A stretch of DNA of 33,312 nucleotides, from the NCBI GenBank assembly GCA_020630525.1, contig JAHDBF010000004.1, positions 1 to 33,312 of the forward strand, given 5' to 3'. The notes under the pieces were generated by a model. It was not told where the DNA came from. It did not search any database and saw nothing but the letters and a program-made list of their open reading frames with translations. Position 1 is the first letter of the stretch. Each line of letters begins with the position of its first letter. Of this stretch, positions 3,001 through 33,229 are shown in pieces. Source of the stretch: Saprospiraceae bacterium. GTDB taxonomy: Bacteria > Bacteroidota > Bacteroidia > Chitinophagales > Saprospiraceae. Made by a program: the position numbers and the translations under genes.

Positions 3001-6000
3001 AATATAGCGTTACCCTTACTGATGAAAATGGGTGTATTTCTTATGCAAGTATTGATGTTGAATTTCTACTATTACCTGAACCAGAAATTATCATCGATGG
3101 AGAGTTTTGTAATGGCTCTGATGTGGATTTAGAAACCACTGAATCTTATGACCTTTATGAATGGTCTTCAGGCGGTCAAGCAACTAGTATAACTGTAAAT
3201 GAAGCTGGACAATATTTTGTCACCGTAACTGATTTTGATGGTTGTACTGGAGTTACCTCAATCGAAATTTCAGAATTGGCCGCCGTGGATGTTAACATAG
3301 AAGGCTCTAGCAGTTTCTGTCCTGGAGGATTTACTACTTTAAGCGCTGGAGATTGGGAAAGCTATGCGTGGTCAAATGCTGAAAATACACAGTCAATTAA
3401 CGCAGATGCTGAAGGTACTTATACCGTCACAGTTACCAATGAAAATGGATGTGAAGGTACTGCTTCTATCGAAGTAAGTTTACAAAGTTCTTTAAACCCT
3501 AGTATTTCAGGACCTACTGTTATCTGTCCTAATCAGTCTATCATCCTAGATGCAGGAACAGGTTTCAGTGAATACGAGTGGAGCGATAATTCAACTGGTC
3601 AAACACTTGAAGTAAATACAGCCGGAACATACTCTGTAAATGTTACCGATATTTCTGGTTGCTCGGGATCTACTGAAATAACCATTACTGATGCAACACC
3701 AGAACTTGTCGAAATTTCTGGAATGTTGGAATTTTGCGAAGGTACTTTTACTACGCTTGAAGCAACTGGAAATTGGCAAAGCTATGAATGGTCTAATGAG
3801 GCAAATGGATCTTCTATTCAAGTATTAGATAATGACAATTACTCAGTTACTGTTACTGATAATAATGGTTGTACTGCTAGCTCAACTGTTACAACCAATG
3901 CTCAATCTGCACCATCTCCTATAATTACTGGTGTTATGGATTTTTGTCAAGGAGAATCGATTACAATCTCTACCATGAATGCGTATGATGCTTACGAATG
4001 GAGTAACAATATTAATACTCAAGAAAATACCATTAACGCTGCAGGAACATATACCATCACAGTTACTGACAACTTAGGATGTACTGGCACTGCCACTACA
4101 ACAATAAATGTTTTCAATCCTGAACAAGTAGAAATTCTTGGATCTATCACTTTTTGTGTGGGATCTTCTACAACGCTAGATGCAGGATCAGATTTTTCAA
4201 ATTGGAGTTGGTCTACTAGTGAATCTACTCAGATTATAGAAGTAAATACTGAAGGAATGATTTCTGTTAGTGTCACTGATGCCAATGGTTGCAGTTCTTC
4301 AACAGCAGTAAATGTAACAGAGGAAACAACTTTATCTATCAATGTATTAGGCCAACCAAATATTTGCCCCGGAGGAAGCTCAACACTTTCTGTTGGAAAT
4401 TTTGGAATGTACAATTGGGAAGATCCTGATGGAAATACTTTTGACACACCCACCATTGATGCCAGTACTCCTGGAACATATATGGTTACCGTTACTGATG
4501 ATGATGGATGTATCGGTAACGGGTCTTTTGATCTAGGATTAAATGCAGTGCCTATGCCTACAATTAGTGGAGACAATGACATTTGTCAAGATGCTTTTAC
4601 TACGCTTACTTTAGATCAAGACTATAGTAGTTACGAGTGGAGCACGCAAGACCTAACGCCTAGTTTGATCGTTACCGAAACTGGAACATATGAAGTTACC
4701 GTTACTGATGCCAATGGTTGTACTGGTGTTACTGACTTCTCTGTTACACTGCATCAAAACCCAACAATTACTATTGATGGTGGTAATCAGTTCTGTCCAG
4801 AAGGTAATATTGATTTATCTGTCGAAGATATTTATAACGATTATGCTTGGAGCAATGGCGAAAGTACTGCTTCTATTACTACTGACATCATTGGTTTATA
4901 TGAACTTACTGTTACGGACCAATTTGGTTGTACCGGAAGTTCTGCGATCAATATCACAAACTATGTCGTAAATCCTAATCTCATCGGGGGATCTACTTCT
5001 TTTTGTACTAATTCTTCCACTACCCTTGATGGTGGAGACGAGTATATTGCTTGGAGTTGGTCTACAGGAGATATGACACAAACTATTTTAGTCGACACAG
5101 AAGGTGAATACACCGTTACGGTAACTGATCAAAACAATTGTACCAGTAGCAGTACTGTAACAGTTACTGAAGAAAGTTCCTTATCTCCTTCGATTACTGG
5201 AGATTTAAGTTTCTGTATCGGCGAAACAGGAACACTTAATGGTGGTGAATTTTCATCTTGGAGTTGGACTAGCCCTAATGGAACTTTTGACACTCAAGAA
5301 ATAGAAATTACTGAAGGTGGAACATACACTTTACTTGTCACTGACGCTAGTGGTTGTTCTGGTTCTGGGTCTGTAGAAGTTATGGTTTTCGATTTACCTT
5401 CTCCTCAAATAGTTGGTGACTTTGGTATTTGTCCTGGTCAAGAAACTACGCTTTCTCTTGATGGATCATTCTTAAGCTATGAATGGAGCAATGGTGAACA
5501 GACTCCAACGATTATAACTGATACACCTGATTTATATGCAGTCACTGTTACTGACATTAATGGCTGTATTGGTTCTACTGAAATGCAAGTAACGCAAGAC
5601 CCTATTCCTGACGTACAAGTGATTAATACAAATTGTGCTGATGATGGACTTACTTATGATATAACATTTAGTTCTGACGGAGATGTTTTCGAAGCAAACA
5701 ATAACGAACTTGATGTAGTCGACAATAACGATGGCACTTTCTCAATATTACAAATTGACACTTCAATAACTGTATCTATATTTGTATCAAACAGCATTAC
5801 AACTTGTGAAGGCAATTATGAAATTAATCCTCCTAATTGTGGTTGTGGTGCAATAGCTGATATCGGCTCAGGAATCCTAACTTGTGAAACTTTAACCGTT
5901 GTTTTAGGTGGCGGAAATACTTCAGTAGGTCCTGACTTTACGATTGAATGGTTTGATGAAAATGGAAATCCTATTGGCAATACTCCTGAGCTTATGGTTA

Positions 6001-10186: not shown

Positions 10187-11062
10187 TTATAAACTAGAAA
10201 GTGTGATAGTAATTGCAGATCCAGTAATAGTACGGTCTACTTTTACTCCCTTTTCTTTTAAGAAATTTCTTAGTTGGATAACGAATTTAGAGATTCGGTA
10301 ATTCTTTCCTGATTCATCTTTTAGTGGCACTTTTATTTGATCAAAAACTATTTTAGTTGCACTAGAACCTTGCATATGGTAGTAATTGTTGTAGGCATTT
10401 TCTTCTACCCACTCTTCAATAATCTCTGATAAATAATATCCACTATCATCTACTTCACTATCCAGATCTAAATCTGATCCTATTTCAATTCCTACTTCCA
10501 TAGTTACTGTTTTACCATTTTCAATGATAAGATTAAACTTCTCTTGGATAGTATTTAATAAATTGTCTATTTCTGCTTCGATTGCTTTCTGCGCTAATTT
10601 CTCATAATTATCAGTCTTAAATCTTGGGCTAGTAGAAACTTTATTGGCTAGTGATTCTCCAGAAAATGCATCATAAGCAGTAAGAATACAAGTAACACTA
10701 TTACCTGAAGGACTGTAATCTCTATTGGCTTCTACCTCTATATAAATATCTGCTCCCGACATTTTGATAACTTCATCCTTTAAAGATAATTCTTGGTCTT
10801 CGGTTAATGCTTCCGAATTTTGCAATTGCTTTAACTTTGCTCTAAAATCAATGGTATTTACTCCACGCTGATCAAAAGCTTCTTTTACTTTAGTAATGGC
10901 AATTCTATTCAACTCACTATATTCATACATTTGGCGTGTACTCTGACCTTCCTTAGCAAAAGGTATTGCCATTATCGTTGGTTGAATCGTTGGTTTTTCA
11001 TCTTGAGCAATTGCGCTGAAACAAAAGAAAATACTTAAAAAAGTAAATAGTATATTTTTCAT
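10187..11062 (-). CDS. Secreted protein, tentatively DUF6175-like
   Basis: 291 aa; signal peptide MKNILFTFLSIFFCFSAIAQ followed by 'KPTIQPTIMAIPFAKEG...'. The family name is tentative. Confidence 0.75.
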   Translation of the reverse strand: MKNILFTFLSIFFCFSAIAQDEKPTIQPTIMAIPFAKEGQSTRQMYEYSELNRIAITKVKEAFDQRGVNTIDFRAKLKQLQNSEALTEDQELSLKDEVIKMSGADIYIEVEANRDYSPSGNSVTCILTAYDAFSGESLANKVSTSPRFKTDNYEKLAQKAIEAEIDNLLNTIQEKFNLIIENGKTVTMEVGIEIGSDLDLDSEVDDSGYYLSEIIEEWVEENAYNNYYHMQGSSATKIVFDQIKVPLKDESGKNYRISKFVIQLRNFLKEKGVKVDRTITGSAITITLSSL

Positions 11063-16004: not shown

Positions 16005-16514
16005 ATGTCTACACATCCGCTTTGTCAAGAACAAACATTTTCTACCATTTTTCGTACGTACGCTGATACGGTTTTCAATTTTGTATATTATAAATCTGGA
16101 GATAAAGAACAAGCCAAAGACATCACACAAGAAGCATTTATGAAACTTTGGCAAAACTGTGCCTCAGTAACACTTGAATCTGCAAAGGGCTATGTATTTA
16201 TGACTGCAAGAAATAAAATGTTCAACAATTTTGAACATAAAAAAGTACAATTAAAATTTGCCAATCTCAACCATTCTGAACGAACAAACGAAAACCCAGA
16301 ATTTATTCTAGAAGTTAAAGAGTTACATCAAAAGATTGAAGAAGCAATTTCTAATTTACCAGAAAAGCAAAGAATCGTATTTTTACTAAGTAGAATAGAT
16401 AAACTGACATATAAAGAGATTGCAAAAATCTTAGACATAAGTAAGCAAGCGGTCGAGAAAAGAATTTATAATGCACTAGATACTATGAGAAAAATAAATA
16501 AAAACATTCGATAA
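16005..16514 (+). CDS. ECF-family RNA polymerase sigma-70 factor
   Basis: 169 aa; region 2 'FRTYADTVFNFVYYKSGDKEQAKDITQEAFMKLWQN', region 4 'ISNLPEKQRIVFLLSRIDKLTYKEIAKILDISKQAVEKRIYNALDTMRK'. Confidence 0.95.
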   Translation: MSTHPLCQEQTFSTIFRTYADTVFNFVYYKSGDKEQAKDITQEAFMKLWQNCASVTLESAKGYVFMTARNKMFNNFEHKKVQLKFANLNHSERTNENPEFILEVKELHQKIEEAISNLPEKQRIVFLLSRIDKLTYKEIAKILDISKQAVEKRIYNALDTMRKINKNIR

Positions 16515-16581
16515 AGTAGGTTATTTCTACACATAACTGTCTTTAAAATGTATTCCAAATAATGTCAAATATTCTAAAATA

Positions 16582-17454
16582 ATGATACATGATAAGATGC
16601 TACACAAGTGGTATAATAATACATTAACCGAAGATGAATTGAAAGAATTTAAATTAAGAGATGAATATGATGATCTAGTTAAAATAAAAGAAAATACTGA
16701 TCACCTTGAAACTCCTACATTTGATAAAGAAAAAATGTTGACTGCAATATTAAATGATTCTACTAAAAATAAACCGTCTAATGTCATCAAATTACATTGG
16801 TTTAAATATGCTGCTGCAATTACAATCTTAATTGCCTCAACTATTTTCTTTTGGCCAAATGATAAAATTACAAAGTTCAATACAAGTCACGGTGATTATG
16901 TCTCAGCAGAGTTTCCAGACAACTCTATTTTTGAACTACAAGGAAACAGTTCCTTGAAATTTGATAAAGAAACCTGGAGTCAAAAAAGAATAGTATTCCT
17001 TGAAGGAAATGCAATATTTGAAGTGGTAAAAGGACCTGAGTTTTTAGTAAAAACTCAAAATGGTGATGTACGTGTTCTAGGAACAAAATTCGAAGTAAAT
17101 GAAAGCATGGATACATTAGAAGTGAGCTGTTACGAAGGTAATGTAGAGGTGAATATATTCACAAAAAAAATAACAGAACAACTTTTGGCAAATGAAAAAC
17201 TATTATCAGTAGGCGAATCCACTATAATCCAAAAATCAGAATTGGTAAAACTAAAAAGTGTTACTTTAAATCAATTAATACAAGAATTACAACAGACTTT
17301 TGATGTTATTATTAACAAATCAAATATTAATATAAACGAAAAGCTAAGTTGCAATTTCCAAAAACAAAACTTAGCCAATGCCTTAGAGACAAGTATAAAA
17401 ACATTAGGAATAAATTATTCAATAGAAAATAACACAGTCACTCTAACCAAATAA
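16582..17454 (+). CDS. FecR-family anti-sigma / signal transducer with C-terminal DUF4974/STN-like domain
   Basis: 290 aa; single TM 'FKYAAAITILIASTIFFWP'. FecR core 'DYVSAEFPDNSIFELQGNSSLKFDKETWSQKRIVFLEGNAIFEV...FLVKTQNGDVRVLGTKFEV'. C-terminal 'VTLNQLIQELQQTFDVIINKSNININEKLSCNFQKQNLANALE'. Confidence 0.95.
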   Translation: MIHDKMLHKWYNNTLTEDELKEFKLRDEYDDLVKIKENTDHLETPTFDKEKMLTAILNDSTKNKPSNVIKLHWFKYAAAITILIASTIFFWPNDKITKFNTSHGDYVSAEFPDNSIFELQGNSSLKFDKETWSQKRIVFLEGNAIFEVVKGPEFLVKTQNGDVRVLGTKFEVNESMDTLEVSCYEGNVEVNIFTKKITEQLLANEKLLSVGESTIIQKSELVKLKSVTLNQLIQELQQTFDVIINKSNININEKLSCNFQKQNLANALETSIKTLGINYSIENNTVTLTK

Positions 17455-17459
17455 AAATA

Positions 17460-20060
17460 TTGATTTCGGATTACAATAAAATATACTTTAGCTTTTTAAT
17501 AATATGCTCAATTGCCACAAAGTGCATTGCGCAATCAGCATATTTTGAGATTTTATACTCCAATATCTCACTAGCAGAAGTTATCGAAGATTTAGAAAAA
17601 AATCATCAATTATTATTTAGCTACAAAGATCAAGACATTGACAACATCAACATAGCATGTGAAGTAAAAACTGACAACCTTAATATACTTATCCAAGAAA
17701 TTCTTGAAGATAGTAATCTAGATTTCGAAATTGTAGATAACAATTTTATAATACTTAAAAACAATATTAAAGACTATAAAATCTGTGGCAATGTTTTTGA
17801 TGAATTAAGTCAAGTTCCTTTACCATATGCTTCCATTATTATTAATAAAACGACAAAGGGAACAAGTACTGACTCATTGGGCAATTTTGGTTTTATGCAT
17901 ACGTCGAAAGAAAATCAAAGTGTAATAGTAAGCTATGTAGGTTATGAAAAAAAAGAATTTCCTATTACCTCATTTAATAATAACTGCATAGATATCCCAC
18001 TTTCGATTTCAGAACAAAATGTCCCTTACCTAGTGATAAAAGATTACATAACAGACGGAATCACTCTTGACAATAACGGAAGTAGTACAAGTATTAGATT
18101 ACAAAGGGTTGGGCTGTTGGCTGGTCAGACAGATACCGATGTATTAAAAACCTTACAATTCTTGCCCGGAATAAATGCACCAAGTTCTAAGGCATCGGAT
18201 ACATATATCAGAGGTGGAACTCCAGACCAAAATTTAATAATCTGGGAAGATATTCCTCTTTATCATACCGCCCATTACTTTGGGATGATCTCAGCTATTA
18301 ATCCAAATATTGTAAAAAATATCGAAGTATACAGAGGTGGGTTTGGCGCAGAATATGGTGGAAAAATTGCAGGCGTAATTGATATTAAAGCTGATGATGA
18401 AAAAGATAAAAAACCTTATATAGGCATATCTTCAAATTTTATAAATAATGCCATATATGGAAAACAGTATGTAGATAAAAAGAAAAAAACCGCTTTTATA
18501 TTTTCAATCCGCCGATCATATGATGAATTATTTACCACTCCTACAATATTAAATATTAGTAGATTCAATCAACAAGGATTTATCGTAGGAGATAGAGACT
18601 TATTAGAATTGCCTGACAACATTAAAGTCAATAGTGATTTTAGTTTTCTTGATGGAAATATAAAATTGAGCAGTAGGATAAATAAAAAAAACAGAATAGA
18701 TTTTTCAGGTCTCTTCGTTCAAAATAATTTTGATGATCTCATTTTAGACAATAATAGAATGGAATCACAAAGAGATACATTCGAGTTATCAAATATTGGC
18801 GCTAGTGTAAATTGGGAATACAATTGGAGTAATAGAATTAAAAGTAAACTCAAATTAATTAACACAACTTATAATTACGATTATAATTATGTCATTCAAT
18901 CGGAACCACAACATACTGTCAGCTTATCAGGAGTTAAAAAGAATGAAATAACCGATCAACAAGTCTCTTATATTACAGATTATAAAACCAAGAAAAACAT
19001 GAACTTTTCTTTGGGATATCATTTTACCAATTATGATATAAAATATAAAATAAGCCAAACAAATAAAAATCAAAATGAACTTGACGACGACGCTGAATCT
19101 GAAGCAAATCTTCATGCGCTTTTTATAAAATATGACAACCCAATAAATAATATTTTAGGTATAAATCTAGGTTTGAGAAGTAGTTATTATAATTCAGACA
19201 AAAAATTCTACCTAGAACCACGAGTCCGTCTTGCAAAAGCAATTAATGATAATTTTTCATTAAGTTTTAACTACGGCAGACATTTTCAGTTTGCATCTCA
19301 AGTAATAGAATTTAAAGGAAGTGAAACTGGTTTGAGTTTGCCATTATGGGCATTGACCAGTAGATCTATCCCAGTCCAAAAAGCTGACCTTTTTCAACTA
19401 GGAACAATATTCGAAAAAAACAATTGGCTTATCGACCTGCAAATGTATCATCGCAAAACAAATGGAATTAGCAGTAGAGTTTATGATTTTGATTTTATTG
19501 AAGGTGGCGAGTCAGAAATAGGAAATGCGATTACAAATGGAATAGATGTTTTAGTTAAAAAAAGATTTTGGAAAGTAAGATCTTGGATCGCATACTCATA
19601 CAGTTATTCTAAACTTTCATTCAAAAGAATTAGATTTAAAGAATTTCCTGTTGATCACGACCAAAGACATGTTTTACAATGGTCAAACCAAATAAAAATC
19701 AATAGATTCCAGCTTGCAATCTCCTATAAGTTTAGTACTGGTCTTCCATACTCATTTGCAAACAACTTTGAGCAGGAGATGAATCAAAATGACTTTGAAT
19801 TAATATATGAAGGCATAAATAATTATAGACTTAAAAACATCCACGAAGTAAATTTTTCAGCACAATATCAACTGAATAAATCAGATAAAAAATGGAAAGC
19901 TTATTTGCTGTTTTCAATAACAAATTTATTAAACAGAAATAATATTTTCAATAGAGTTTATTATGTTGATAGCACTGCAAATCAAACACCACATATAGAA
20001 TTCAGACAAAAAGCAAATATGGTTTTTACACCTAATGTTTCTTTGAATTTTGAGTTTTAA
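17460..20060 (+). CDS. TonB-dependent outer-membrane receptor with STN and carboxypeptidase-regulatory-like domains
   Basis: 866 aa; TTG start and signal peptide. STN 'ISLAEVIEDLEKNHQLLFSYKDQDIDNINIACEVKTDNLNILIQEILEDSNLDFEIVDNNFIIL', 'ICGNVFDELSQVPLPYASIIINKTTKGTSTDSLGNFGF', plug 'DTDVLKTLQFLPGINAPSSKASDTYIRGGTPDQNLIIWEDIPLYHTAHYFGMISAINPNIVKNIEVYRGGFGAEYGG', beta-barrel end 'NMVFTPNVSLNFEF'. Confidence 0.95.
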   Translation: MISDYNKIYFSFLIICSIATKCIAQSAYFEILYSNISLAEVIEDLEKNHQLLFSYKDQDIDNINIACEVKTDNLNILIQEILEDSNLDFEIVDNNFIILKNNIKDYKICGNVFDELSQVPLPYASIIINKTTKGTSTDSLGNFGFMHTSKENQSVIVSYVGYEKKEFPITSFNNNCIDIPLSISEQNVPYLVIKDYITDGITLDNNGSSTSIRLQRVGLLAGQTDTDVLKTLQFLPGINAPSSKASDTYIRGGTPDQNLIIWEDIPLYHTAHYFGMISAINPNIVKNIEVYRGGFGAEYGGKIAGVIDIKADDEKDKKPYIGISSNFINNAIYGKQYVDKKKKTAFIFSIRRSYDELFTTPTILNISRFNQQGFIVGDRDLLELPDNIKVNSDFSFLDGNIKLSSRINKKNRIDFSGLFVQNNFDDLILDNNRMESQRDTFELSNIGASVNWEYNWSNRIKSKLKLINTTYNYDYNYVIQSEPQHTVSLSGVKKNEITDQQVSYITDYKTKKNMNFSLGYHFTNYDIKYKISQTNKNQNELDDDAESEANLHALFIKYDNPINNILGINLGLRSSYYNSDKKFYLEPRVRLAKAINDNFSLSFNYGRHFQFASQVIEFKGSETGLSLPLWALTSRSIPVQKADLFQLGTIFEKNNWLIDLQMYHRKTNGISSRVYDFDFIEGGESEIGNAITNGIDVLVKKRFWKVRSWIAYSYSYSKLSFKRIRFKEFPVDHDQRHVLQWSNQIKINRFQLAISYKFSTGLPYSFANNFEQEMNQNDFELIYEGINNYRLKNIHEVNFSAQYQLNKSDKKWKAYLLFSITNLLNRNNIFNRVYYVDSTANQTPHIEFRQKANMVFTPNVSLNFEF

Positions 20061-20154
20061 TATTAGCTATAGCCTATTTTTAACTATTATAAGCACCTTC
20101 ATTATTCTATTATGTATTATATTGGTTTCAATTAATCATACTACCCATTTTTTT

Positions 20155-21621
20155 ATGTTCAGAATATCCATATTTGTTCTACTCACAGTTATATTTTCTT
20201 TACCAATATTTGCTCAAACAACAGATTGTATTTCAAATAGGTATCAAGAAAGTGTATTTAATAATATCCAAATAGATTCTGACATTACTTATGGTTCAGC
20301 ACCAAATATCTATGGCTTTAATCAAAGCCTAGAACTAGATTTATATCAACCGGATCCTAGCGAAGAATACTTGGGCAAACGACCATTGATCGTCATGTTT
20401 TTTGGAGGTGCATACATAACAGGCAGTAAGAATGATGCTGATATGGAAGCATGGTGTGACAGCTTAGCGCATTATGGTTATGTATGTGCTGCTGCAGAAT
20501 ATAGACTTGACAATGCTGCACATTTTGCTTTACCAAATCAAGGTGTAAGAGCAGCATATAGAGCAATCCAAGATGGTAGAGCAGCCATCAGATATTTATT
20601 AGAAGATCCAGACAATTTAAATTTAAACATTGATCCAGAACACATTTATGTGGGTGGTGAAAGTGCAGGTGCTATTACTGCGCTACATATCGCTTATATG
20701 GAAGAAGCCGAACGTCCTGCAGAAACTTATGACATTGGTTTTTTAGATCCTGACATGGGTTGCATAGATTGCACAGGAAACAACTATAATCAACCATTTA
20801 CCATAAAAGGAATAATTGATCTTTGGGGTGCAACTCTAGATACTGATTTTATAGATGCTTCAGAAAATGTGCCTACTGTTATCATTCATGGCGATCAAGA
20901 TGATATAGTACCCTACGATTCTGGACCACCATTTAACGTTCCATTATTTCCAACAATGTATGGTGCACTTCCATTAGATGCAACAATGACTGCAAAAAAT
21001 ATCACGCATGAATTTCATCCTTACCCTGGAGAAGGTCATGTCATATACGGAATACCGTCAGGGATAGTAACTTTTCCAAATGATTATTGGGAACCGATAT
21101 TTACTCAAGGTCATGAGTTTTTATATAACAAAACTATGGCTTATGATTCTCCAACACCGATTGGTGCTTTAACAGTTTGTCCTGGAGATACAGAAACGTA
21201 CTCTGTCCCTGCAAATCCGAATTCCACTTTTTGTTGGGACATCACTAATGGGACTATAATCTCTTCGAATACAAATCAAGTAACTGTACAATGGAATAGT
21301 CTACCAGCAACATTGAGTGTCACAGAAGAAAATTGCATAGATGTAATTGGAACTAAAAAAACTATTAACATCAATCCATTAAATCCATCTTCTTATACCA
21401 ACGCAAATGGGAATATGCTTACAGGAATCCAAAACCCAATTGCAGATTACGAAACTGATGGTGCAATAGAATCAAATCAAATCATACAACTCGATCCCAT
21501 CAATCCAAGTAATTTAAATGTGGATTACGATAGTAAAACAATGATAGAATTACAGAGTGGTTTTGAAACTAGGATTGGTCCTGTATTTCATGCTTTTATT
21601 GATGGATGTGGTGGGCAATAA
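20155..21621 (+). CDS. Secreted alpha/beta-hydrolase (carboxylesterase-like) with PKD-like and putative 3-coathanger/GC C-terminal domains
   Basis: The ATG at 20155 gives signal peptide MFRISIFVLLTVIFSLPIFAQ; the ORF-track TTG start at 20050 overlaps the receptor gene. Oxyanion region 'VMFFGGAYITGSK', nucleophile elbow 'GGESAGA', 'HGDQDDIVP' and 'GEGHVIYG'. Tail 'NVDYDSKTMIELQSGFETRIGPVFHAFIDGCGGQ'. Confidence 0.87.
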   Translation: MFRISIFVLLTVIFSLPIFAQTTDCISNRYQESVFNNIQIDSDITYGSAPNIYGFNQSLELDLYQPDPSEEYLGKRPLIVMFFGGAYITGSKNDADMEAWCDSLAHYGYVCAAAEYRLDNAAHFALPNQGVRAAYRAIQDGRAAIRYLLEDPDNLNLNIDPEHIYVGGESAGAITALHIAYMEEAERPAETYDIGFLDPDMGCIDCTGNNYNQPFTIKGIIDLWGATLDTDFIDASENVPTVIIHGDQDDIVPYDSGPPFNVPLFPTMYGALPLDATMTAKNITHEFHPYPGEGHVIYGIPSGIVTFPNDYWEPIFTQGHEFLYNKTMAYDSPTPIGALTVCPGDTETYSVPANPNSTFCWDITNGTIISSNTNQVTVQWNSLPATLSVTEENCIDVIGTKKTININPLNPSSYTNANGNMLTGIQNPIADYETDGAIESNQIIQLDPINPSNLNVDYDSKTMIELQSGFETRIGPVFHAFIDGCGGQ

Positions 21622-21882: not shown

Positions 21883-24800
21883 ATGCTTAAACATTTAATT
21901 TTCACCTTGTTTTTTTGGTCAGTGATATACAGTATTGCCTTTACACAGAATGTCCCAATTCAAAATTATACAATAAATAATTTAGGTCAAGTAGAACTAG
22001 AAATCGAGGCGCAAGCTGACAAATATTATATCCTTACAACAAATCATGAACCTAGTTCGAATTATGAATCAAACACATCAATAACAATGGGTGTTGATGG
22101 CAATTTGATTATTACAGAACCGCTAGGTGCATACTCCGAACAAAACTATAAAGTCACTGCTTATGATATAGATGAACCAGGAGATATTGATAATGATGGT
22201 ATAGATGATATCACCGAATTTAATAATACACCAAATGTTTCTCCTTTAAACTTTGCAGACGAAATCTCAATTCAAGATGGGAGTGTATATATCGATTCTA
22301 AAGAAATGTTTTCTGAATTAGCTGTAGTAAATGATGACATACCTTGGGCACCATTCTTAAATAACCAAGAATTTGCAAAATTTGTAATTGTAAATCAGGA
22401 CTCTGATGAAGCTAGAGTATATTTTGTTAACAGCAAAACACACTACATACATGCTGACTTTATATATACCATCGACACAAATGACGATGAAGTAACAACT
22501 GGGGAAATTGTATATAATCCAAACGAAATTATGCCTAATGGTGTCATTGGTAGTTATTCCTTTAACTATTCATTTGGTGATGCTTATTCCTTTGAATACA
22601 CACAGAAAACATTTGAATTACTTGCAGCAAATATGCCTTTTTTACAAAATAACTTTCAACATTTTATTGGGAGCCAAGGAGAAAACACATATGAAAATAA
22701 TTATAAAAATGATTATGAAGGTTCAAGAATTAATGTTGTTTTAGAATCAGAATTTGTAGAAGATGTTGATTACATTCCATTTAATCAAGCAGAAGGATTT
22801 GGTTTTTTTAGACAGATGACTTTGGATGAAAATCCAGGATCAAGAGATGTAGTATTGTATGATGCCTTACCCAATTCGCTACCAAGAGTGGGAGGCATTA
22901 TAACCTCCGTAATTCAAACTCCGTTATCCCACGTAAACCTAAGAGCAATCCAAGACAACTTACCTAATGCATATATTAAAAATCCTCTGGAAATAGATTC
23001 AATTTCAAACTTGTTAGAAAAATATATTTATTACAAAGTAGAACAAGATAAATATATCATACGAGAAGCCACCATCGAAGAAGTTAATGCATGGTACGAA
23101 AAACTGAGACCAACAGAAGATCAAATTCCAGAAAGAGACTTAAGCAAAACTGAAATTCTACCACTTGATGAAATAGAATTTGAAATGGCGACATCCTTCG
23201 GTGCAAAATGTGCTAATGTGGCGACGATGAGAAAATTTGGTTTCCCAGAAGGAACAATTCCTAATGGTTTTGGAGTACCTTTTTACTACTATGATGAATT
23301 TATGAAATTCAATGGATTTTATGAAAAGGTAGAAAATATGATTTCTGATCCAACATTTATTTCAGACTTAGAAAGTCGTATTGAAATACTGAGCGATTTT
23401 AGAAAAGAAATCAAAGATGCAGACATGCCTCAGTGGATGTTGGATGATTTACAAGAAATGCATGATTCTTTTCCAGAAGGTACTTCAATCAGATGTCGCT
23501 CTAGTACCAATAATGAAGATTTACCAGGATTTAGTGGCGCTGGATTATATACTTCTAAAACCCAGCATCCAGAAGAAGGACATATTTCTAAATCTATAAA
23601 ACAAGTCTATGCCAGCATGTGGAATTTTAGAGCATATGACGAACGAGATTTTTACAGAATAGACCATTATATTGCAGCAATGGGAGTACTTTGTCACCCA
23701 AATTATCAAGACGAAAAATCCAATGGCGTAGGTGTCAGTATCGATCCAATTTACGAAACAGAAAACACTTTTTACCTAAATACTCAAGTGGGTGAATTTC
23801 TTATCACAAACCCAGATGCAAACTCTATTCCTGAAGAAATATTATTAAATACCGATCCAGAAGAAGGATATACTGTATTAAGAAGATCAAACCTTGTAGG
23901 TAATAACGAACTTGTCATGGGAGAAGATTACCTTAATCTAATGAGGGAATATCTTAGTGTAATTCATGATGAATTTGAAATATTGTATAATGTAGTTGGT
24001 GCAGAAGGTTTTGGGATGGATATAGAATATAAGGTTACGAAAGACGACCAATTAATCATAAAACAAGCAAGACCTTGGGTTTCATTTTGGTCAAATATTA
24101 AATCAAATTTCGATCTTGGTGTTGTAGAAATTACAAAACCACAAAGTGCATCTACGCTTGGTGATTCAGAACTCGTAACCGCAAAAATTGCAAACCAAGG
24201 ATTGCGGGAAATAAGAGATTTTGAGTTATCATTAATATTGAATAATGAAATAGTAGAAACCTTAAGTATATCAGATACCTTAGCTCCTCAAAGTTCAAAA
24301 GAATATCAATTTACAACACCTATAGACCTTTCTGAAATTGGTTTTTATAATGTAGGTGCTATTGTTTATCACGCTGAAGATGGTTACAGCACAAATGACA
24401 CATTGATATCTACGATAAGTAAACTGCATTTATTAGAAGGAGGAATCATGGCTTCGTTAAAGAAAGTAGATTGCAGTAATGCCATTGAAGCAACAGCAAC
24501 CATTACTAATTATGGTGAATCATCATTCAGTAATACTCAAATAGAAGTTATTGTAAACGGAATCACTGTAGACACTTTTGATTATGGTTTTAGCATTCCC
24601 TATTTAGCAGAAGTAAATATAACAATTCCAATTTCAGAAAATCTTCAGGAAGAAAATAATGAAATCACTTTAAATCTATTGAGTATAAATGGTGAACAAG
24701 ATGCAATATCTACTAATAATTCCTCTTCGTTCACAACTAGTTTAGATACTGAATACGACAATGTTACTTTGACAATAAATACTGATGATTTTTCTGAAGA

Positions 24801-25593
24801 AACTTCGTGGGAATTAAGGGATGATCAATCAAATGAAATTGTAGGTTCAGGTGTTTTAGGTGCAAATTTAGAATTTTACACAGCAGATGTATGTGTCAAT
24901 TATAACTCTTGTTTTACACTCTATGTTTATGACACTTATAGTGATGGAATTTGTTGCAGTTTTGGAGAAGGAAATTTTTCTTTAGAAAATAACATTGGCG
25001 AGACACTTATATCAAACAACGGAGATTTTGGAAGTAAAGCAGTGGAATTCTTTTGTTTAGATGGTGAAGGCTGCGGACTTACTGCTGATGTCCAGACAAT
25101 AAATGCAAGCAACGCGAATGCTTCAGATGGAACAATTATTATTTCCACAGATTCAGAAAGTGAAGCTTTTGAATATAGTATCGATGGTGGAGAAAATTAC
25201 ACTACTGATAATATTTTTGAAAACTTATCATCCGGGGAGTACACCATCATAGTTGCAAATCAAGCGGCAAATTGTTATTATGAAGAAAATATTTTCTTAG
25301 GGATTAATAATATTTCATCAACTGAAGAGTATGCTTCAAACGACTTAATACTATTTCCAAATCCGACTACAGGAATTTTCTACTTTGATACAAATAATAA
25401 ATATGGATTCTCAAGTGGATTACATCTTGAAATTTACAACCATCTTGGAGAATTGATAAATAAAGATTCATTTTCAGAAAAAGAAAGTGATGGTAAAGCC
25501 AAATTCTCATTAGAGCCATACGCCAATGGCATTTATGTCATAAAATGCTTTAATCAAGATTTTGAAAAATACTTTCGGGTAGTTAAGATATAA
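21883..25593 (+). CDS. Secreted PEP/pyruvate-binding (ATP-grasp) protein with upstream phosphohistidine-swivel-like motif, CARDB-like and SprB-like regions, and T9SS type A C-terminus
   Basis: Signal peptide MLKHLIFTLFFWSVIYSIAFTQ. 'VGGIITSVIQTPLSHVNLRA' is swivel-like. 'ATSFGAKCANVATMRKFGFPEGTIPNGFGVP...GTSIRCRSSTNNEDLPGFSGAGLYTSKT...LIIKQARPWVSFW' is PPDK_N-like. Ca-loop-like 'DIDNDGIDDITEF'. C-terminus 'LILFPNPTTGIFYFDT...LEIYNHLGELINK...LEPYANGIYVIKCFNQDFEKYFRVVKI'. Confidence 0.92.
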   Translation: MLKHLIFTLFFWSVIYSIAFTQNVPIQNYTINNLGQVELEIEAQADKYYILTTNHEPSSNYESNTSITMGVDGNLIITEPLGAYSEQNYKVTAYDIDEPGDIDNDGIDDITEFNNTPNVSPLNFADEISIQDGSVYIDSKEMFSELAVVNDDIPWAPFLNNQEFAKFVIVNQDSDEARVYFVNSKTHYIHADFIYTIDTNDDEVTTGEIVYNPNEIMPNGVIGSYSFNYSFGDAYSFEYTQKTFELLAANMPFLQNNFQHFIGSQGENTYENNYKNDYEGSRINVVLESEFVEDVDYIPFNQAEGFGFFRQMTLDENPGSRDVVLYDALPNSLPRVGGIITSVIQTPLSHVNLRAIQDNLPNAYIKNPLEIDSISNLLEKYIYYKVEQDKYIIREATIEEVNAWYEKLRPTEDQIPERDLSKTEILPLDEIEFEMATSFGAKCANVATMRKFGFPEGTIPNGFGVPFYYYDEFMKFNGFYEKVENMISDPTFISDLESRIEILSDFRKEIKDADMPQWMLDDLQEMHDSFPEGTSIRCRSSTNNEDLPGFSGAGLYTSKTQHPEEGHISKSIKQVYASMWNFRAYDERDFYRIDHYIAAMGVLCHPNYQDEKSNGVGVSIDPIYETENTFYLNTQVGEFLITNPDANSIPEEILLNTDPEEGYTVLRRSNLVGNNELVMGEDYLNLMREYLSVIHDEFEILYNVVGAEGFGMDIEYKVTKDDQLIIKQARPWVSFWSNIKSNFDLGVVEITKPQSASTLGDSELVTAKIANQGLREIRDFELSLILNNEIVETLSISDTLAPQSSKEYQFTTPIDLSEIGFYNVGAIVYHAEDGYSTNDTLISTISKLHLLEGGIMASLKKVDCSNAIEATATITNYGESSFSNTQIEVIVNGITVDTFDYGFSIPYLAEVNITIPISENLQEENNEITLNLLSINGEQDAISTNNSSSFTTSLDTEYDNVTLTINTDDFSEETSWELRDDQSNEIVGSGVLGANLEFYTADVCVNYNSCFTLYVYDTYSDGICCSFGEGNFSLENNIGETLISNNGDFGSKAVEFFCLDGEGCGLTADVQTINASNANASDGTIIISTDSESEAFEYSIDGGENYTTDNIFENLSSGEYTIIVANQAANCYYEENIFLGINNISSTEEYASNDLILFPNPTTGIFYFDTNNKYGFSSGLHLEIYNHLGELINKDSFSEKESDGKAKFSLEPYANGIYVIKCFNQDFEKYFRVVKI

Positions 25594-25647: not shown

Positions 25648-25672
25648 GGAACAGAAAAAAGATTTCTGTTCC
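25648..25672 (+). terminator. Possible weak terminator hairpin downstream of the PEP-binding protein gene
   Basis: ggaacagaaa-aaaga-tttctgttcc is a perfect 10-bp stem, but no good T-tract follows. Confidence 0.4.
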
Positions 25673-25840: not shown

Positions 25841-28800
25841 TTGCTGAGAAAATTCATATCATATATTCTGCTAAACCTACTTGTTTTTCAGTTAGGAAAT
25901 AATTTATTATTTGCAAATGGTATTGAAGTAAGTGTGACTACTTCTACACCTGTTTGTGGAGAAGAATGTATTACCCTATTACCAACTATTGAGATGGGAA
26001 CAGCAACCTGTTTTCTTTGGACTTCAAACTTAGGATATTATAATGATTCTGATTTTGAACCAGTTGTTTGCCCAGAGGACGAAGAAACTTTTACCATTAC
26101 CGTATGGAATGATGATTCTGGACCTAACTTGATTACAAACGGGGATTTTGAACTAGGCAATACAGGTTTTAGTTCTGATTACGATTTTGACTCTTGTCCT
26201 CCAGGAAATCAGTGGGGTTCTTTGGGATGTGAGGGTGTATATGTACTAACCACAAATTCAGGAGATACCCATACCAACTTTCCAGATTGTAATGCATTGG
26301 ACGGAGGCATATTTATGGCACTAAATGGAGCTCAAGGACTTCAGAATGTTTGGTGTCAAACGTTAAGTGTAAATCAAAATTCAAAATATGAATTTTCAGC
26401 TTTAGGTGCTTCAATACATCCAGATTCGCCAGCAGAATTACAATTTGCTATAAATGGTAGTCCATTAAGCAACACACTAAGTTTAGCTGGTACTTGTAGC
26501 TGGTTGGAACTACTTGATGTATGGATCTCAGACGCTAATACATCTGCAGAAATCTGTATTACAAACCTAAATACGGCATTGAGTGGAAATGACTTTGCTA
26601 TTGATAATATTTTCTTAGGAGAATATTGCAAAGCTAGTGCAGAGATAACCGTGGCACCTATTTCAGATACTGAACCACCAGTAATTGTAGGAAACGTTGC
26701 AGATATTATGCTAGATTGCGGCGCAGATATTCCGAATATTATTGCCTTAATGACGACAGATAATTGTGACCCTAATTTCCCTCAAGCACTTGTCCCAACT
26801 GTTACAGAGTCAGGCGATCAATGTGAGGAACCTTTAACAATAATACGTACGTACATTGCCACTGATGCCTCTGGCAATACTTCTGAGCCATTTATTCAAA
26901 CAATAATAGTGCGTGCTGATGAAGAAGCTCCAATTATTGAAAGTGGAAACTTAGTAGACGTTACACTTTCTTGTGGTGAGGATATTCCTTTTGCCATAAC
27001 TTTAGTAGCCACTGATGATTGCGATCCAAATTTTCCGCAAAATGTATCACCAATAGAATCAGAATCAGGAGATGGTTGTAGCTCAGATAGAACAATAATA
27101 AGATCATACGAAATAGCTGATCAATGCGGCAACAATGCTATTCCAGTCATACAAACAATAACGATAAAAGCAGATTTAGAAAATCCAATAATCGAAAGTC
27201 CTTCACAAATCGCAGATATAAATTGCCAAGATCCATTGCCGACACAACAAACATTACAGGCCTCCGATGATTGTACACAACAAGTTGATGTCATTGCCTC
27301 TATAGATGATTATGATATAGATAACTGTAGTGGATATACGATTACCTACCGATGGACAGCAATTGATGAATGCGACAATACAGCAGAAGAAACCATTACT
27401 TTTAATGTACTGCCAGACAATAGCATTCCAATTTTTGATTCAAGTCCTGCCAACATTCCAAACGTAAATTGTGGTGACATTCTTCCAACACCAGAAACAT
27501 TAACTGCGACAGATGACTGTGATACAGATTTAGAAATTACGACTGAAGTCATTTCAGAAACAGAAAATATGTGTGATGGATATTCAATAACACACATTTG
27601 GACTGTAGTAGATGATTGCAATAATGAAAATAGCACTTCTACAAGTTTTATGGTTTTACCAGATACAGAAGCCCCAGATTTAGTATTGCCAGATGATATA
27701 ACTGTTGAATGTAACAATATTCCACCTATAGGAATAGCTACTGCAACTGACAACTGTGACAGCAACCCAACTGTAATATTCGTAGAAGAGATAATCAACG
27801 ATGGATCATGTCCATATACTATAGAACGCTCTTGGTATGCAGAAGATATTTGTGGTAATGCCTCAGATATTCAAACACAAACAATAACTGTAGGTGATAC
27901 AGAAAATCCAGAAATATTAAATATTCCTTCCGATATAACTTTAGATTGCTTCAGTGATTTTGAGGCAATTATTCCAGATTTAAATTGGATTGACAATTGT
28001 ACTACTGGGGGAATAGTTATAGGATCGGAAGAACCTAATTCTAGTCAATTAGATTGTAATGGTGGAGAATTTATACGGACTTGGGAAGTCATTGACGCAT
28101 GCAATAACGTAACTACAGAAACACAATCAATTGTAATATTACCAAAATCCGAAGTAGAATGGATCGGAGATTTACCTGTAGACATAACCATCAATTGCGG
28201 TGAAGAAATTCCTGAATTGCCAAATTTAAATTATGCCAATACTGACAATGGGTTTTGCGCAGAATCAGGAACGGTTCCTGTATTTGACGATGGTGCAGAT
28301 TTAATTAATTGTGGTGATAAAAAAATATATTCTTGGTTATTAGAAGAAGATGAAAACAACTGCATAAATGAGCTTCTACACACTATAACAATCAGTGTCC
28401 AAGATACTGAAAATCCAACCTTTATTAATCCACCATTAGATCTCACTATAGATTGCTACACAGACATTCCAATAGCTGAGGAACTTCAATGGGAAGATAA
28501 TTGTTCTGTAGGAGGGTTTTCTATTGCCGCGGAATCAGACATATTCTCAGAATGCTCTGGTGGAGAAATTATAAGAACATGGACAGCTATTGATGATTGT
28601 GGAAATGAAGAAATTTACGAACAAACAATTGAAGTTGAAGCTATAAATCTAGCTAATTGGGTGGTAACATTACCAATAGATATTACGATTCAATGTGGAG
28701 AAGATCCACCCCCATTTATAAGTTTAGATTATTCTAACAATGAATCTAATGAAGGCTGCATTGAAGAAGGAACAATCTCTCCTATCGAAAATGGATCACT

Positions 28801-31800
28801 TAATCAACCGGGAGATCAACTGACGTTAACTTGGGAATACGAATCTTTTTGTGGAAACATACTTTCTCATACTCAAACTATAACCGTTGGAGAAATTCCA
28901 GATGCATTAATTTCTGGGTCGACATCTTTTTGTCCAGGCTCTTCTACAATACTAGGATTAACAGAAAGTTACAATGAATACAACTGGTCTAATGGCTCAA
29001 ATGAACCTGAAATAGAAGTTAGTGAAGAAAACACATATATTGTTACCGTTACTGACATTAACGGATGTACCACTTCAACAGAAATAGAAATTACTATAGA
29101 CAATGAATTATTTCCTTCTATAGATGGGTCAGAAACTATTTGTCCAGATGAGTCAATAACACTGGATGTTGGCAATGGATTCATAAACTACTTATGGAAT
29201 GATGGCAGCGAGGAAGCATCAATAACTATTTATAACGGTGGTTGGTATTCCATAACTGTTTCAGACGATAATGGATGTGAAGGTACTGCAGAAATTTATG
29301 TTGAAGAAGTAGAAGCAGAACAAGTAGAAATCTTAGGTGATCTATCAGTGTGTTTATCTGACCTTGCAATATTAAATGCCAGTGAAGGATTTAGTATCTA
29401 CGAATGGGAAAATGGTGCCATAGGATCAGAAATAGTTGCAGAAATTAATGGAGATTACACGGTAACTGCAACGGATAATAATGGATGTATCTCCTCAACT
29501 TCGGTCGAATTGGAATATGTTGATAATCCAGAACCGATAATCATTGTTGAAGAAGAATTTTGCCAAGGAGAATCTATCACCTTAGAATTAAATGAAAGTT
29601 ATGACTTGTATCTATGGTCAACAGATTCTGAAAATACTAGTATAGAAATTAATGAACCAGGCACATACTCTGTTACTATCACAGATGAAAATGAATGCAC
29701 TGGAGTAGCAACAACTACCATCACTCCTCAGTCAGCACTAAATGTAACCATACAAGGATCACCAAGTTTTTGCGAAGGAGGATATACAACTCTAAGTGCG
29801 GAAGGATGGTCAAGTTACTTTTGGTCGAATAATGAAATTTCATCATCTATCCAAGTAGAATCCGAAGGACTTTATTCATTAACCGTAACTGATGAAAATG
29901 GATGTGAAGCTACTGCTGATATAAATATAACAGTACAAAATTCATTAAACCCAAGCATTTCTGGACCGACAACAATATGTCCCAATTCTAGTATTACACT
30001 AAATACTGAAAACGGTTATACTAGCTATTTATGGAGCAATAATGAAAACACACAAGAAATAAGTATTACTGAAGCAGGATTATACGCTATTACAGTTACA
30101 GATAATTCTAACTGTTCCGGTATTGCAGAAATTAATATCGTAGAATCAATTCCATCAGAAATTTCAATCCTAGGAAATTTAAGTTTCTGTCAAGGTAGTA
30201 CAACTACGTTAACGGTAGATGGCGATTGGCAAAATTATGTTTGGTCTAATAATGCAACAGCTAATACAATACAAGTGGTAGAAGCTGAAAATTATAGTGT
30301 TACCGTAACAGATGCAAATGGATGCACAAATAGTAGTGAAGTTACTGTAAGTGAACAAATAAATCCTACTCCAATAATTGATGGACCTACAGAGTTATGC
30401 AGCGGATCTACAATAAGTCTCCAAACTACAAATACATACAATTCTTATTACTGGAATAATGGAGAGACTACAGAAACAATTTCTGTATCAAATGCTGGCA
30501 TATATAGCCTAACCGTCACTGACGATCTAGGTTGTACTGGTACTAGCAATACAAATATTATTTCTTTAATTGCCGACCAAGTAATTATCGGAGGTTCTAC
30601 ATCTTTCTGTTCTAATTCTTCAACTACACTGGATGGTGGAGATAATTATACTTCTTGGAATTGGTCGACAGGAGAATCTTCTCAAATAATATCAATTAAT
30701 ACAGAAGGAAGTTATAGTGTTACTGTTACTGATCAAAACAATTGTACTTCTAGTAGTCAAGTATTGGTAACTGAAGAAAGTTCTTTATCACCTGTAATCA
30801 CGGGAGATTTAGATTTTTGTTTTGGAGAATCTGGGTTTCTTTCCAGTGGTGAATTCTCTTCTTGGAATTGGAACGGTCCATCAGGAACATACAATACTCA
30901 ACAAATAGAAATTTCTGAAGAAGGAACATATACACTCGAGGTTACAGATGCAAGTGGATGTTCTGGATCCAGTACTGTAGAGGTGAAAATACTAGAAACT
31001 CCAACTCCACAAATAATTGGGAATTTAAACATTTGTCCAGATACAGAGACCATACTTTCTCTCAATGAGTCTTTCTCTACTTATGAATGGAATAATGGAA
31101 ATCAAAGTCAAAATTTCACTATTAATGAGCCAAATACATATAGTGTAACCGTTACAGATTTCAATGGTTGTAAAGCTTCTAGTTCGGTTGAAGTTGTTCA
31201 AGAGAATATTCCTAATTTTGATATTATAAATACTGAATGTGCAGAAGATGGTATGACTTATAGTATCACGTTTAGTACTGATGGAGATACTTTTGAAATC
31301 AATAACAATGAATTAAATACAATAGAAAATACTGACGGGACATTTTCTATCTTCCAAATAGATACTTCAGAAAATGTATCTATTATAATTACAAATAGTG
31401 TTACAACATGTCTTGCAAATTATGATATTGAGGCACCTAATTGTGGGTGCGGTGCCAAAGCCGATATTGGTTCGGGAGTGCTTACATGCGAAATTGAAAA
31501 TATAATATTGGGAGGAGGAAGCACTTCTATTGGACCAGAATTTTTAATAGAATGGTTTGATGAAAATGGAAATCCTCTAGGAAACACAGTAGAACTTTTA
31601 GTCTCTGAACCAGGCATGTACACTATGGTCGTAACTGACCTTATTTTAAACTGTGAGGACATCGCCACTTATTCTGTAGCAGCAAATCAAGATCCTCCAA
31701 TGGCAAACATTTTAGTTGATCCTAGTAATATTATTGATTGTAGTGTTGAAAGTGTTTTCTTATCGGTAGATGATCCGCAACCAGGAATTATGTACAACTG

Positions 31801-33229
31801 GCAAATTGATGATTATGCATTACCTAATGAAATTTCAATAGAAGTATCAAATACTGCAGAAGTATCTTTGGTCGCACTAGATACCGTAACGCTTTGTTCT
31901 TCTATGGATGTGGAAAACATTATTAATGGTGAAGAATATCCTGCCATTACTATTGGGCAACCACTAGATTTAAACTGCTTTAATCATACCATCGTTATTG
32001 ATGCAACAGAAACTGTAACTGGTGAAAATATTCAGCAACAATGGTATGATGAAAATATGATTCCTATTGCGAATGCAAATTCAACTAGCTTAGAAGTACA
32101 AGAACCAGGAACATACTACTTGCAAAACACAGATGTTTCTAATGGCTGTGAATTAATCGAATCTATAAACATTACAGAAAATACAATCAGTCCTGAGATT
32201 AATGCAGGAGAAGATTTGTCAATCCCTTGTAATGAAAATGGAGTACTCATAAATGCAACTATACTAAGTTCTTTTAGTGAAGATCTTACTTTACAATGGT
32301 CTTTCGAAGGCAATATCTTGAACAGTGTTACAAATAATTTAAATCCGATATTTAATCAAGAAGGGATATATCAACTAACAGTTATAGATAATATCAACGG
32401 ATGCAGTGCAAGTGACTCTGTTAATATCAATATGGAAAATGATATCCCAACAGGTTTAAATTTTGAAATAGAATTTTCACCTTGTGGCGACTATACTGAT
32501 GGAGAAATCATCATCCAAGAAACCATTGGAGGAACAGCTCCTTATGAATATCTAGTAAATGAAACTAGTTTAAATGGTTCTAGTATTACAAATCTATCTG
32601 CTGGCGAATACACAATTCAAGTTATTGATAGCAAAGGATGTAGCTATGAAGAGACTATTGAACTACCAACTGGTAATAATATTAATGTATTTGCTAGCCC
32701 CAACAATTTTATTTTAACGAATGGAGATGAAGGAGTCGTAAATCTAATTACTAACTTGGACGACAATATAAATTATATTATTTCCTGGGATAATGAAGAA
32801 GGAGTTTCCTGCACAAATTGCTTATCAGATATTGTATTAAATCCAACAACATCTCAGGATTACAATATTACCCTAATTGATGAAAATGGATGTATCGACA
32901 GTACAAGTATTCGGGTTACTGTGCGACATGTTATTGACATCTATATACCTACAGTTTTTACACCTGATGAAATCGGTGAAAATCAGTATTTTACTGTATT
33001 TACCGATGAAAACATTATTACATTAACAGGTTTTAAAATTTATGATCGTTGGGGCGAATTAATATTTACAACACCAGGAGACATTCTTCCTAATGTACCT
33101 CACTTAGGTTGGAATGGAATCTATAACAACAAACCTGCAAACCCAGGTGTATATGTTTATATAGTTGAATATAAAGATATTGATGGCAATAAAGGTGTGT
33201 CTGTTGGAGACATTACTTTAGTTAGGTAA
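25841..33229 (+). CDS. Giant multidomain surface protein (complete): lectin/CBM-like N-terminal domain, HYR-like modules, 11 x ~70-aa Ig-like repeats, SprB-like repeat, T9SS type B C-terminus
   Basis: 2462 aa; TTG start with signal peptide MLRKFISYILLNLLVFQLGNNLLFANG. 'NLITNGDFELGNTGF...NDFAIDNIFLGEYC' is jelly-roll/CBM-like. Co-linear with the protein ending at 7628. C-terminus 'YIPTVFTPDEIGENQYFTVF...FKIYDRWGELIFTT...GWNGIYNNKPANPGVYVYIVEY...GDITLVR'. Confidence 0.95.
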   Translation: MLRKFISYILLNLLVFQLGNNLLFANGIEVSVTTSTPVCGEECITLLPTIEMGTATCFLWTSNLGYYNDSDFEPVVCPEDEETFTITVWNDDSGPNLITNGDFELGNTGFSSDYDFDSCPPGNQWGSLGCEGVYVLTTNSGDTHTNFPDCNALDGGIFMALNGAQGLQNVWCQTLSVNQNSKYEFSALGASIHPDSPAELQFAINGSPLSNTLSLAGTCSWLELLDVWISDANTSAEICITNLNTALSGNDFAIDNIFLGEYCKASAEITVAPISDTEPPVIVGNVADIMLDCGADIPNIIALMTTDNCDPNFPQALVPTVTESGDQCEEPLTIIRTYIATDASGNTSEPFIQTIIVRADEEAPIIESGNLVDVTLSCGEDIPFAITLVATDDCDPNFPQNVSPIESESGDGCSSDRTIIRSYEIADQCGNNAIPVIQTITIKADLENPIIESPSQIADINCQDPLPTQQTLQASDDCTQQVDVIASIDDYDIDNCSGYTITYRWTAIDECDNTAEETITFNVLPDNSIPIFDSSPANIPNVNCGDILPTPETLTATDDCDTDLEITTEVISETENMCDGYSITHIWTVVDDCNNENSTSTSFMVLPDTEAPDLVLPDDITVECNNIPPIGIATATDNCDSNPTVIFVEEIINDGSCPYTIERSWYAEDICGNASDIQTQTITVGDTENPEILNIPSDITLDCFSDFEAIIPDLNWIDNCTTGGIVIGSEEPNSSQLDCNGGEFIRTWEVIDACNNVTTETQSIVILPKSEVEWIGDLPVDITINCGEEIPELPNLNYANTDNGFCAESGTVPVFDDGADLINCGDKKIYSWLLEEDENNCINELLHTITISVQDTENPTFINPPLDLTIDCYTDIPIAEELQWEDNCSVGGFSIAAESDIFSECSGGEIIRTWTAIDDCGNEEIYEQTIEVEAINLANWVVTLPIDITIQCGEDPPPFISLDYSNNESNEGCIEEGTISPIENGSLNQPGDQLTLTWEYESFCGNILSHTQTITVGEIPDALISGSTSFCPGSSTILGLTESYNEYNWSNGSNEPEIEVSEENTYIVTVTDINGCTTSTEIEITIDNELFPSIDGSETICPDESITLDVGNGFINYLWNDGSEEASITIYNGGWYSITVSDDNGCEGTAEIYVEEVEAEQVEILGDLSVCLSDLAILNASEGFSIYEWENGAIGSEIVAEINGDYTVTATDNNGCISSTSVELEYVDNPEPIIIVEEEFCQGESITLELNESYDLYLWSTDSENTSIEINEPGTYSVTITDENECTGVATTTITPQSALNVTIQGSPSFCEGGYTTLSAEGWSSYFWSNNEISSSIQVESEGLYSLTVTDENGCEATADINITVQNSLNPSISGPTTICPNSSITLNTENGYTSYLWSNNENTQEISITEAGLYAITVTDNSNCSGIAEINIVESIPSEISILGNLSFCQGSTTTLTVDGDWQNYVWSNNATANTIQVVEAENYSVTVTDANGCTNSSEVTVSEQINPTPIIDGPTELCSGSTISLQTTNTYNSYYWNNGETTETISVSNAGIYSLTVTDDLGCTGTSNTNIISLIADQVIIGGSTSFCSNSSTTLDGGDNYTSWNWSTGESSQIISINTEGSYSVTVTDQNNCTSSSQVLVTEESSLSPVITGDLDFCFGESGFLSSGEFSSWNWNGPSGTYNTQQIEISEEGTYTLEVTDASGCSGSSTVEVKILETPTPQIIGNLNICPDTETILSLNESFSTYEWNNGNQSQNFTINEPNTYSVTVTDFNGCKASSSVEVVQENIPNFDIINTECAEDGMTYSITFSTDGDTFEINNNELNTIENTDGTFSIFQIDTSENVSIIITNSVTTCLANYDIEAPNCGCGAKADIGSGVLTCEIENIILGGGSTSIGPEFLIEWFDENGNPLGNTVELLVSEPGMYTMVVTDLILNCEDIATYSVAANQDPPMANILVDPSNIIDCSVESVFLSVDDPQPGIMYNWQIDDYALPNEISIEVSNTAEVSLVALDTVTLCSSMDVENIINGEEYPAITIGQPLDLNCFNHTIVIDATETVTGENIQQQWYDENMIPIANANSTSLEVQEPGTYYLQNTDVSNGCELIESINITENTISPEINAGEDLSIPCNENGVLINATILSSFSEDLTLQWSFEGNILNSVTNNLNPIFNQEGIYQLTVIDNINGCSASDSVNINMENDIPTGLNFEIEFSPCGDYTDGEIIIQETIGGTAPYEYLVNETSLNGSSITNLSAGEYTIQVIDSKGCSYEETIELPTGNNINVFASPNNFILTNGDEGVVNLITNLDDNINYIISWDNEEGVSCTNCLSDIVLNPTTSQDYNITLIDENGCIDSTSIRVTVRHVIDIYIPTVFTPDEIGENQYFTVFTDENIITLTGFKIYDRWGELIFTTPGDILPNVPHLGWNGIYNNKPANPGVYVYIVEYKDIDGNKGVSVGDITLVR
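28898..31204 (+). repeat. 11 tandem ~70-aa Ig-like protein repeats in giant paralog 2
   Basis: Hand alignment with paralog 1: units match its units 1-8 and 13-15. The span is 2307 nt, or 769 aa, about 70 aa per unit. Confidence 0.85.

Follow-up and report, generated by a model that had tools for sequence, protein, structure and literature searches.

The window, by which we mean the whole stretch of 33,312 nucleotides analysed here, contains on its plus strand an open reading frame of 1236 amino acids (21883-25593), which the sequence and Pfam matches identify as an exported protein with a swivel domain, an ATP-grasp domain and a T9SS type A tail. Its modules are arranged in the order signal peptide, beta-rich domain, a domain here called N2, swivel, ATP-grasp, CARDB, surface-type stretches and T9SS type A tail, and the coordinates, motifs and histidine codon given in the original prediction were exact on re-checking. 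The putative signal peptide (MLKHLIFTLFFWSVIYSIAFTQ) covers residues about 1-22 (21883-21948), the CARDB domain residues 744-820 (24112-24342; PF07705, E 1.9e-7) and the T9SS type A sorting domain (Por_Secre_tail) residues 1157-1226 (25351-25560; PF18962, E 1.3e-7). A terminator-like hairpin with a 10-bp stem lies 3' of the stop codon (25648-25672), as judged from a consensus match only, and its T-run is clearest on the minus strand.

The upstream gene (20050-21621, plus strand) encodes an alpha/beta hydrolase (BD-FAE) that also carries PKD_6 and 3-coathanger stack domains, and it is not part of a conserved neighbourhood. Directly upstream of this gene is a cassette for an ECF sigma factor, FecR and a TonB-dependent receptor (16005-20060), and a DUF6175 family protein (10187-11062; E 1.4e-78) is encoded beside several open reading frames without a Pfam family. 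Each end of the window is occupied by a gene for a very large HYR/Ig-like protein whose CHU_C tail is T9SS type B-like (156-7628 and 25841-33229). By its nearest relatives, the genome belongs to the Saprospiraceae. The only PPDK_N match in this genome, which is called 100% complete, is the window protein itself, and thus there was no sign of an ordinary PEP synthase or PPDK.

The ATP-grasp domain (residues about 430-735; 23170-24087) was identified with the Pfam model PPDK_N (PF01326), which matches residues 438-732 with an E-value of 1.4e-20 and 74.3 bits against a curated cut-off of 27, and with Foldseek, which matched it to PEPS (2ols; E 2e-12) and also to RPH, HpeI and PPDK. His350 of the swivel and Lys442 (23206-23208), Arg539 (23497-23499), Ser558, Asp713, Glu715, Gln728 and Arg730 of the ATP-grasp are invariant across 75 aligned proteins, the last four belonging to the putative metal/phosphate-binding end of the domain (D713-I-E715 ... 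K-Q728-A-R730; 24019-24072). In the alignments, Lys442 corresponds to Lys22 of RPH-Lm and PPDK, Arg539 to Arg117 of RPH-Lm and Ser558 to its Thr136, with serine replacing threonine, and mutagenesis has shown that each of these three RPH-Lm residues is needed for rifampin phosphorylation/resistance (PMC4844700).

Furthermore, in a second sampling, a BLAST-based search of 98 genomes that reached 30% identity and lower, the histidine was kept in all 26 further proteins covering its position, and the ATP-site residues were unchanged in relatives down to 30% identity, save for a glutamate at position 713 in two divergent members. For the 970-aa family described below, the Asp/Glu positions are probably shifted by one or two residues in that alignment. 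The invariance of the histidine is not explained by the homolog scan having been seeded partly with the His peptide, since a His-independent seed peptide is present in 74 of the 75 aligned proteins and was the sole seed in 35 of them. The family is under purifying selection, with dN/dS values of 0.01-0.1 in close pairs that are mostly lowest in the swivel and the ATP-grasp. The retained residues support a phosphotransfer centre that is apparently intact; catalysis itself is inferred.

The swivel domain of the window protein (residues about 287-402; 22741-23088) on its own gave no Pfam match, GWD1_pHisD included, and its assignment is based on an AlphaFold model, Foldseek, Pfam matches in homologs and a chain of profile comparisons. 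Because a larger AlphaFold model was poor in this region, residues 280-408 were modelled separately, with moderate confidence (pLDDT 75, pTM 0.65). The model has a beta-beta-alpha pattern with H350 (QTPLSHVNLRAIQD; codon 22930-22932), the candidate phospho-acceptor, at the start of a helix, and in a Foldseek search of the PDB five rifampin phosphotransferase entries ranked first with a probability of 1.00. The profile of the family swivel was similar to those of two other families, of 630 aa (E 1.9e-15) and 970 aa (E 1.7e-6), and the 970-aa family swivel was in turn similar to the PEP synthase swivels (4.3e-7), with histidine aligned on histidine. A control comparison of swivel with ATP-grasp gave 0.12, and the direct comparison of the window family swivel with the PEP synthase swivels was not significant. 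When 73 family swivels were searched against all 24,736 Pfam models, GWD1_pHisD (PF22973) was the sole recurrent model, matching 54 of them with a best E-value of 0.0014 and every match below the Pfam cut-off; the Pfam model for the PEP-synthase swivel matched none of the 73. The GWD1_pHisD matches in 146 Bacteroidia genomes were also all below the cut-off and many were six-frame noise, and four of them were real members of exported dikinase families (L113, L117, L118 and the gene of L003). Judged by the model and these comparisons, residues about 287-402 are a swiveling phosphohistidine fold.

No TIM barrel (PEP-utilizers_C) was found in the window protein with Pfam, and the place behind the ATP-grasp is taken by CARDB and adhesin-type stretches. 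The original prediction had proposed a swivel followed by an ATP-grasp without a barrel, located between a signal peptide and a T9SS type A tail, and this layout is supported by the Pfam matches, the swivel model and the start of the sequence. Its suggestion that the swivel is related to glucan water dikinases gained tentative support, from sub-cut-off matches in homologs and not from the window protein itself. A fold other than a swivel, a poorly conserved H350 or a systematic loss of the nucleotide-contacting residues would have refuted the proposal, and none of the three was encountered.

At least 544 relatives of the window protein were found in genome contigs, and the observation is therefore not due to chance; with few exceptions, the best 80 of these belong to MAGs of the Saprospiraceae and Flavobacteriales. 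Three exported swivel-first families, which are the T9SS family of the window protein, the 630-aa family and the 970-aa family, are placed apart from PEP synthase in an unrooted tree built from the ATP-grasp. There was no relative among 79 pattern matches in viral contigs, and neither an exported dikinase nor a bacterial GWD was described in the library of literature that was searched. The window protein thus belongs to a large, strongly conserved bacterial family that is apparently undescribed.

All the features of T9SS cargo are present, namely a signal peptide, a C-terminal sorting domain and a T9SS in the genome, in which SprA was identified. The signal peptide of the window protein was called by eye and with a crude script, without a dedicated predictor. 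All 75 homologs with an intact N-terminus begin with a signal-peptide-like stretch (72 with the crude script, 3 by eye), and each of the 67 complete C-termini tested matches Por_Secre_tail. A chance joining of a cytoplasmic PEP synthase to the tail was considered and is ruled out by the recurrence of the same tail in all of these complete genes. The stretch behind the module is so variable in length, from about 93 residues in L109, with little beyond the tail, to over 800, that the module and the T9SS tail can be taken as the core of the protein. The adhesin part is dispensable, since in three members (L003, L109 and L117) the module is followed by nothing but the T9SS tail.

On the N-terminal side, the beta-rich domain contains a calcium-loop-like motif, DIDNDGIDDITE (residues 101-112; 22183-22218), the acidic positions of which (D101, D103, D105, D109 and E112) are invariant in the family alignment; calcium binding is inferred. 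The N2 domain (residues about 121-286; 22243-22740) is well modelled and is a candidate acceptor-binding domain, again with an inferred function. It is weakly similar to the corresponding part of the 630-aa proteins, with an hhalign E-value of 0.003 but a probability of only 10, and profile comparison revealed no similarity to the N-terminal region of the 970-aa family. No recognisable acceptor-binding domain was detected in the window protein. Pfam searches for a starch-binding module (CBM45 or CBM20) gave no match in the window protein at E-values up to 0.1 or in its relatives at E-values up to 10, and no translocation or cell-entry domain was found with Pfam in the window protein.

A gene for an exported histidine phosphatase (His_Phos_1) adjoins the T9SS-family gene in 36 of the 39 Flavobacteriales-type loci with room for it, mostly just upstream and on the same strand, and the next commonest neighbour is found at 5 loci; the phosphatase gene was seen at none of the 29 Saprospiraceae-type loci. 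This SixA/PspA-like protein (loci L065-L111, e.g. L079:4526-5047) has NCBIfam matches that include SixA (E 1.1e-5), and the PspA-type and ribazole-phosphatase models score better. In the window's genome, no relative of the exported phosphatase was found by a protein search that had no positive control, and no TLC/NTT match was found either, but here the control likewise gave no match anywhere. Since neither was found, both the ATP supply and the reversal are unexplained for the window protein.

The neighbours of the 970-aa family gene encode a pair of beta-lactamase-like proteins and an NTT-HEAT protein, the latter with a match to the TLC ATP/ADP transporter (E 1.1e-10), and a conserved block with NTT-HEAT and beta-lactamase2-like genes was observed at loci L132 (with the NTT-HEAT protein encoded at 3576-6332), L133, L134, L135, L137, L138 and L144. 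An NTT-HEAT-like gene is present in all 10 genomes with a 970-aa gene, as compared to 21 of the 287 without one (297 genomes; Fisher p 3.5e-11, uncorrected for kinship), and is adjacent to it in 7 of the 10. The function of NTT-HEAT proteins in free-living bacteria is uncharacterised (PMC5381601), and they are candidates for a possible route of ATP to the periplasm in the 970-aa family. In the 630-aa family, neighbourhoods were inspected for 7 relatives, and in 6 of them a gene for a DUF4956 membrane protein adjoins the dikinase gene and is convergent with it (L126-L131). Elsewhere, DUF4956 has been associated with genes for CotH kinase and polyphosphate polymerase (PMC7112168). This link is weak because the two genes are convergent and because DUF4956 is missing from the neighbourhood of L118 (L139); nor was DUF4956 seen beside members of the window (T9SS) family.

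Beyond the architecture, fold, conserved catalytic residues, purifying selection, export signals and phosphatase linkage that we observed, we find it reasonably probable that the protein acts outside the cell as a catalytically competent dikinase, which phosphorylates an envelope or extracellular acceptor, possibly a glycan. Catalysis, the acceptor, the ATP supply and the role of N2 are all inferred in this scheme. The signal peptide would direct the protein across the inner membrane and the type IX system across the outer membrane. By analogy with PEP synthase, RPH and GWD, the ATP-grasp would then bind ATP and charge H350 of the preceding swivel, converting ATP to AMP, Pi and phosphohistidine, and the charged swivel may turn to the N-terminal side and hand the phosphate to an acceptor located there. 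Our leading guess for this acceptor is a glycan hydroxyl, either in the envelope or outside the cell, an inference from the analogy with GWD for which no starch-binding module was detected. In the Flavobacteriales, the neighbouring exported histidine phosphatase may take the phosphate off again.

The main rival explanation is that the protein scavenges phosphate or nucleotides by cleaving extracellular ATP, in which case only the first half-reaction would take place and the phosphohistidine would be cleared by the exported phosphatase or by water, leaving AMP and two Pi for uptake. Such a function is compatible with the finding that ATP cleavage persists in RPH variants that cannot modify rifampin (PMC4844700), with the many family members from aquatic MAGs, as judged from the record titles, and with a neighbour from the histidine-phosphatase superfamily whose matches include SixA. 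However, SixA is outscored by the other two models, the Saprospiraceae genes lack the phosphatase as a neighbour and the conserved N-terminal domains would be left without a role, and we consider scavenging unlikely. Another explanation, raised as a repurposed binding domain in the original prediction, is that the dikinase fold has been retained without catalysis and serves to sense nucleotides or glycans or to build an adhesin. The CARDB and other surface-type C-terminal stretches are consistent with this, as is the location outside the cell, where ATP is scarce. The invariance of the catalytic residues nevertheless disfavours a mere binding function, since the His, Lys, Arg, Ser, Asp/Glu, Gln and Arg residues are kept down to 30% identity, and the tail-only members can dispense with the adhesin part; we find this explanation quite unlikely.

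It is also conceivable that the dikinase is delivered to act on or in other cells, such as algae, filaments or prey, where ATP is plentiful and storage glucans, for example, could be the target. Bacteria of the Saprospiraceae and Flavobacteriales type feed on algal material or are predatory, and such hosts, together with T9SS export and a GWD-like module, would be in line with a delivered enzyme. Yet the lack of a detectable translocation or cell-entry domain, and a neighbourhood that offers no support, make this very unlikely in our opinion. Finally, the phosphate could be derived from polyphosphate or a phosphorylated glycan rather than from ATP, by the use of another donor or a reverse reaction. 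This would accommodate the scarcity of extracellular ATP, and the DUF4956 genes beside the 630-aa relatives, with their links to CotH kinase and polyphosphate polymerase (PMC7112168), could be taken as a hint in the same direction. But these genes are convergent with the 630-aa genes and were not observed next to members of the window family. The residues that contact ATP have also been retained, and we hold another donor to be highly improbable.

ATP-dependent enzymes are unexpected outside the cell, and yet a full catalytic set is maintained under strong selection in a large exported family, which raises questions about what is phosphorylated there and where the ATP comes from. If the protein is indeed an active dikinase that phosphorylates an acceptor, phosphoryl transfer would be added to the bacterial repertoire of activities on extracellular and envelope polymers, a bacterial relative of the starch-phosphorylating module would have been identified, and the function of the NTT-HEAT transporters in free-living bacteria would become testable. 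A broader hypothesis, which we put forward only tentatively and with more doubt than belief, is that the Bacteroidota perform ATP-driven phosphotransfer outside the inner membrane: NTT-HEAT would move the nucleotide across the membrane, exported swivel-first dikinases (the 970-aa family in the periplasm, the T9SS family at the surface) would phosphorylate glycans of the envelope or outside the cell and exported histidine phosphatases would reset the system, as a counterpart of the plant GWD/SEX4 cycle.

Several known systems resemble parts of this arrangement. CotH-type kinases are unrelated to dikinases in fold and chemistry. They similarly act outside the cytoplasm and have DUF4956 neighbours, as does the 630-aa family (PMC7112168). 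The NTT-HEAT nucleotide transporter fusions are encoded beside the 970-aa exported dikinase family and are not part of the window protein. Rifampin phosphotransferase and the HpeHI-type small-molecule dikinases rank at or near the top in the structural comparisons of both domains and share the ATP residues, but in these the ATP-grasp comes first or is a separate subunit, no export signals have been described and the acceptor domain is a different one. PEP synthase and PPDK share the ATP-grasp family PF01326 and the arrangement of a histidine on a swivel; their swivel motif, T/SxxGGxxxH (PMC12167813), is lacking in the window protein, which reads TSVIQTPLSH. Likewise, the histidine motif is QTPLSHVNLRA in the window protein and GGxTS/CHAAI/VI/VA/SR in PEP synthase and PPDK, in which the domain order is also reversed, whereas the window protein is exported, has no barrel and falls in a separate clade. 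In GWD, the His domain precedes the ATP-grasp. Plant GWD1 and PWD share with the window family the ATP-grasp behind the swivel, the conserved histidine and the absence of a TIM barrel. The swivel model PF22973 matches 54 of 73 family swivels, below the cut-off and not in the window protein, and the tentative kinship of the swivels rests on this Pfam model without a plant GWD sequence in direct alignment. They differ in that the window family has no detected starch-binding module, is bacterial and carries a calcium-loop N-terminal domain and a T9SS tail, and whereas GWD acts inside the plastid, the members of the window family are exported.
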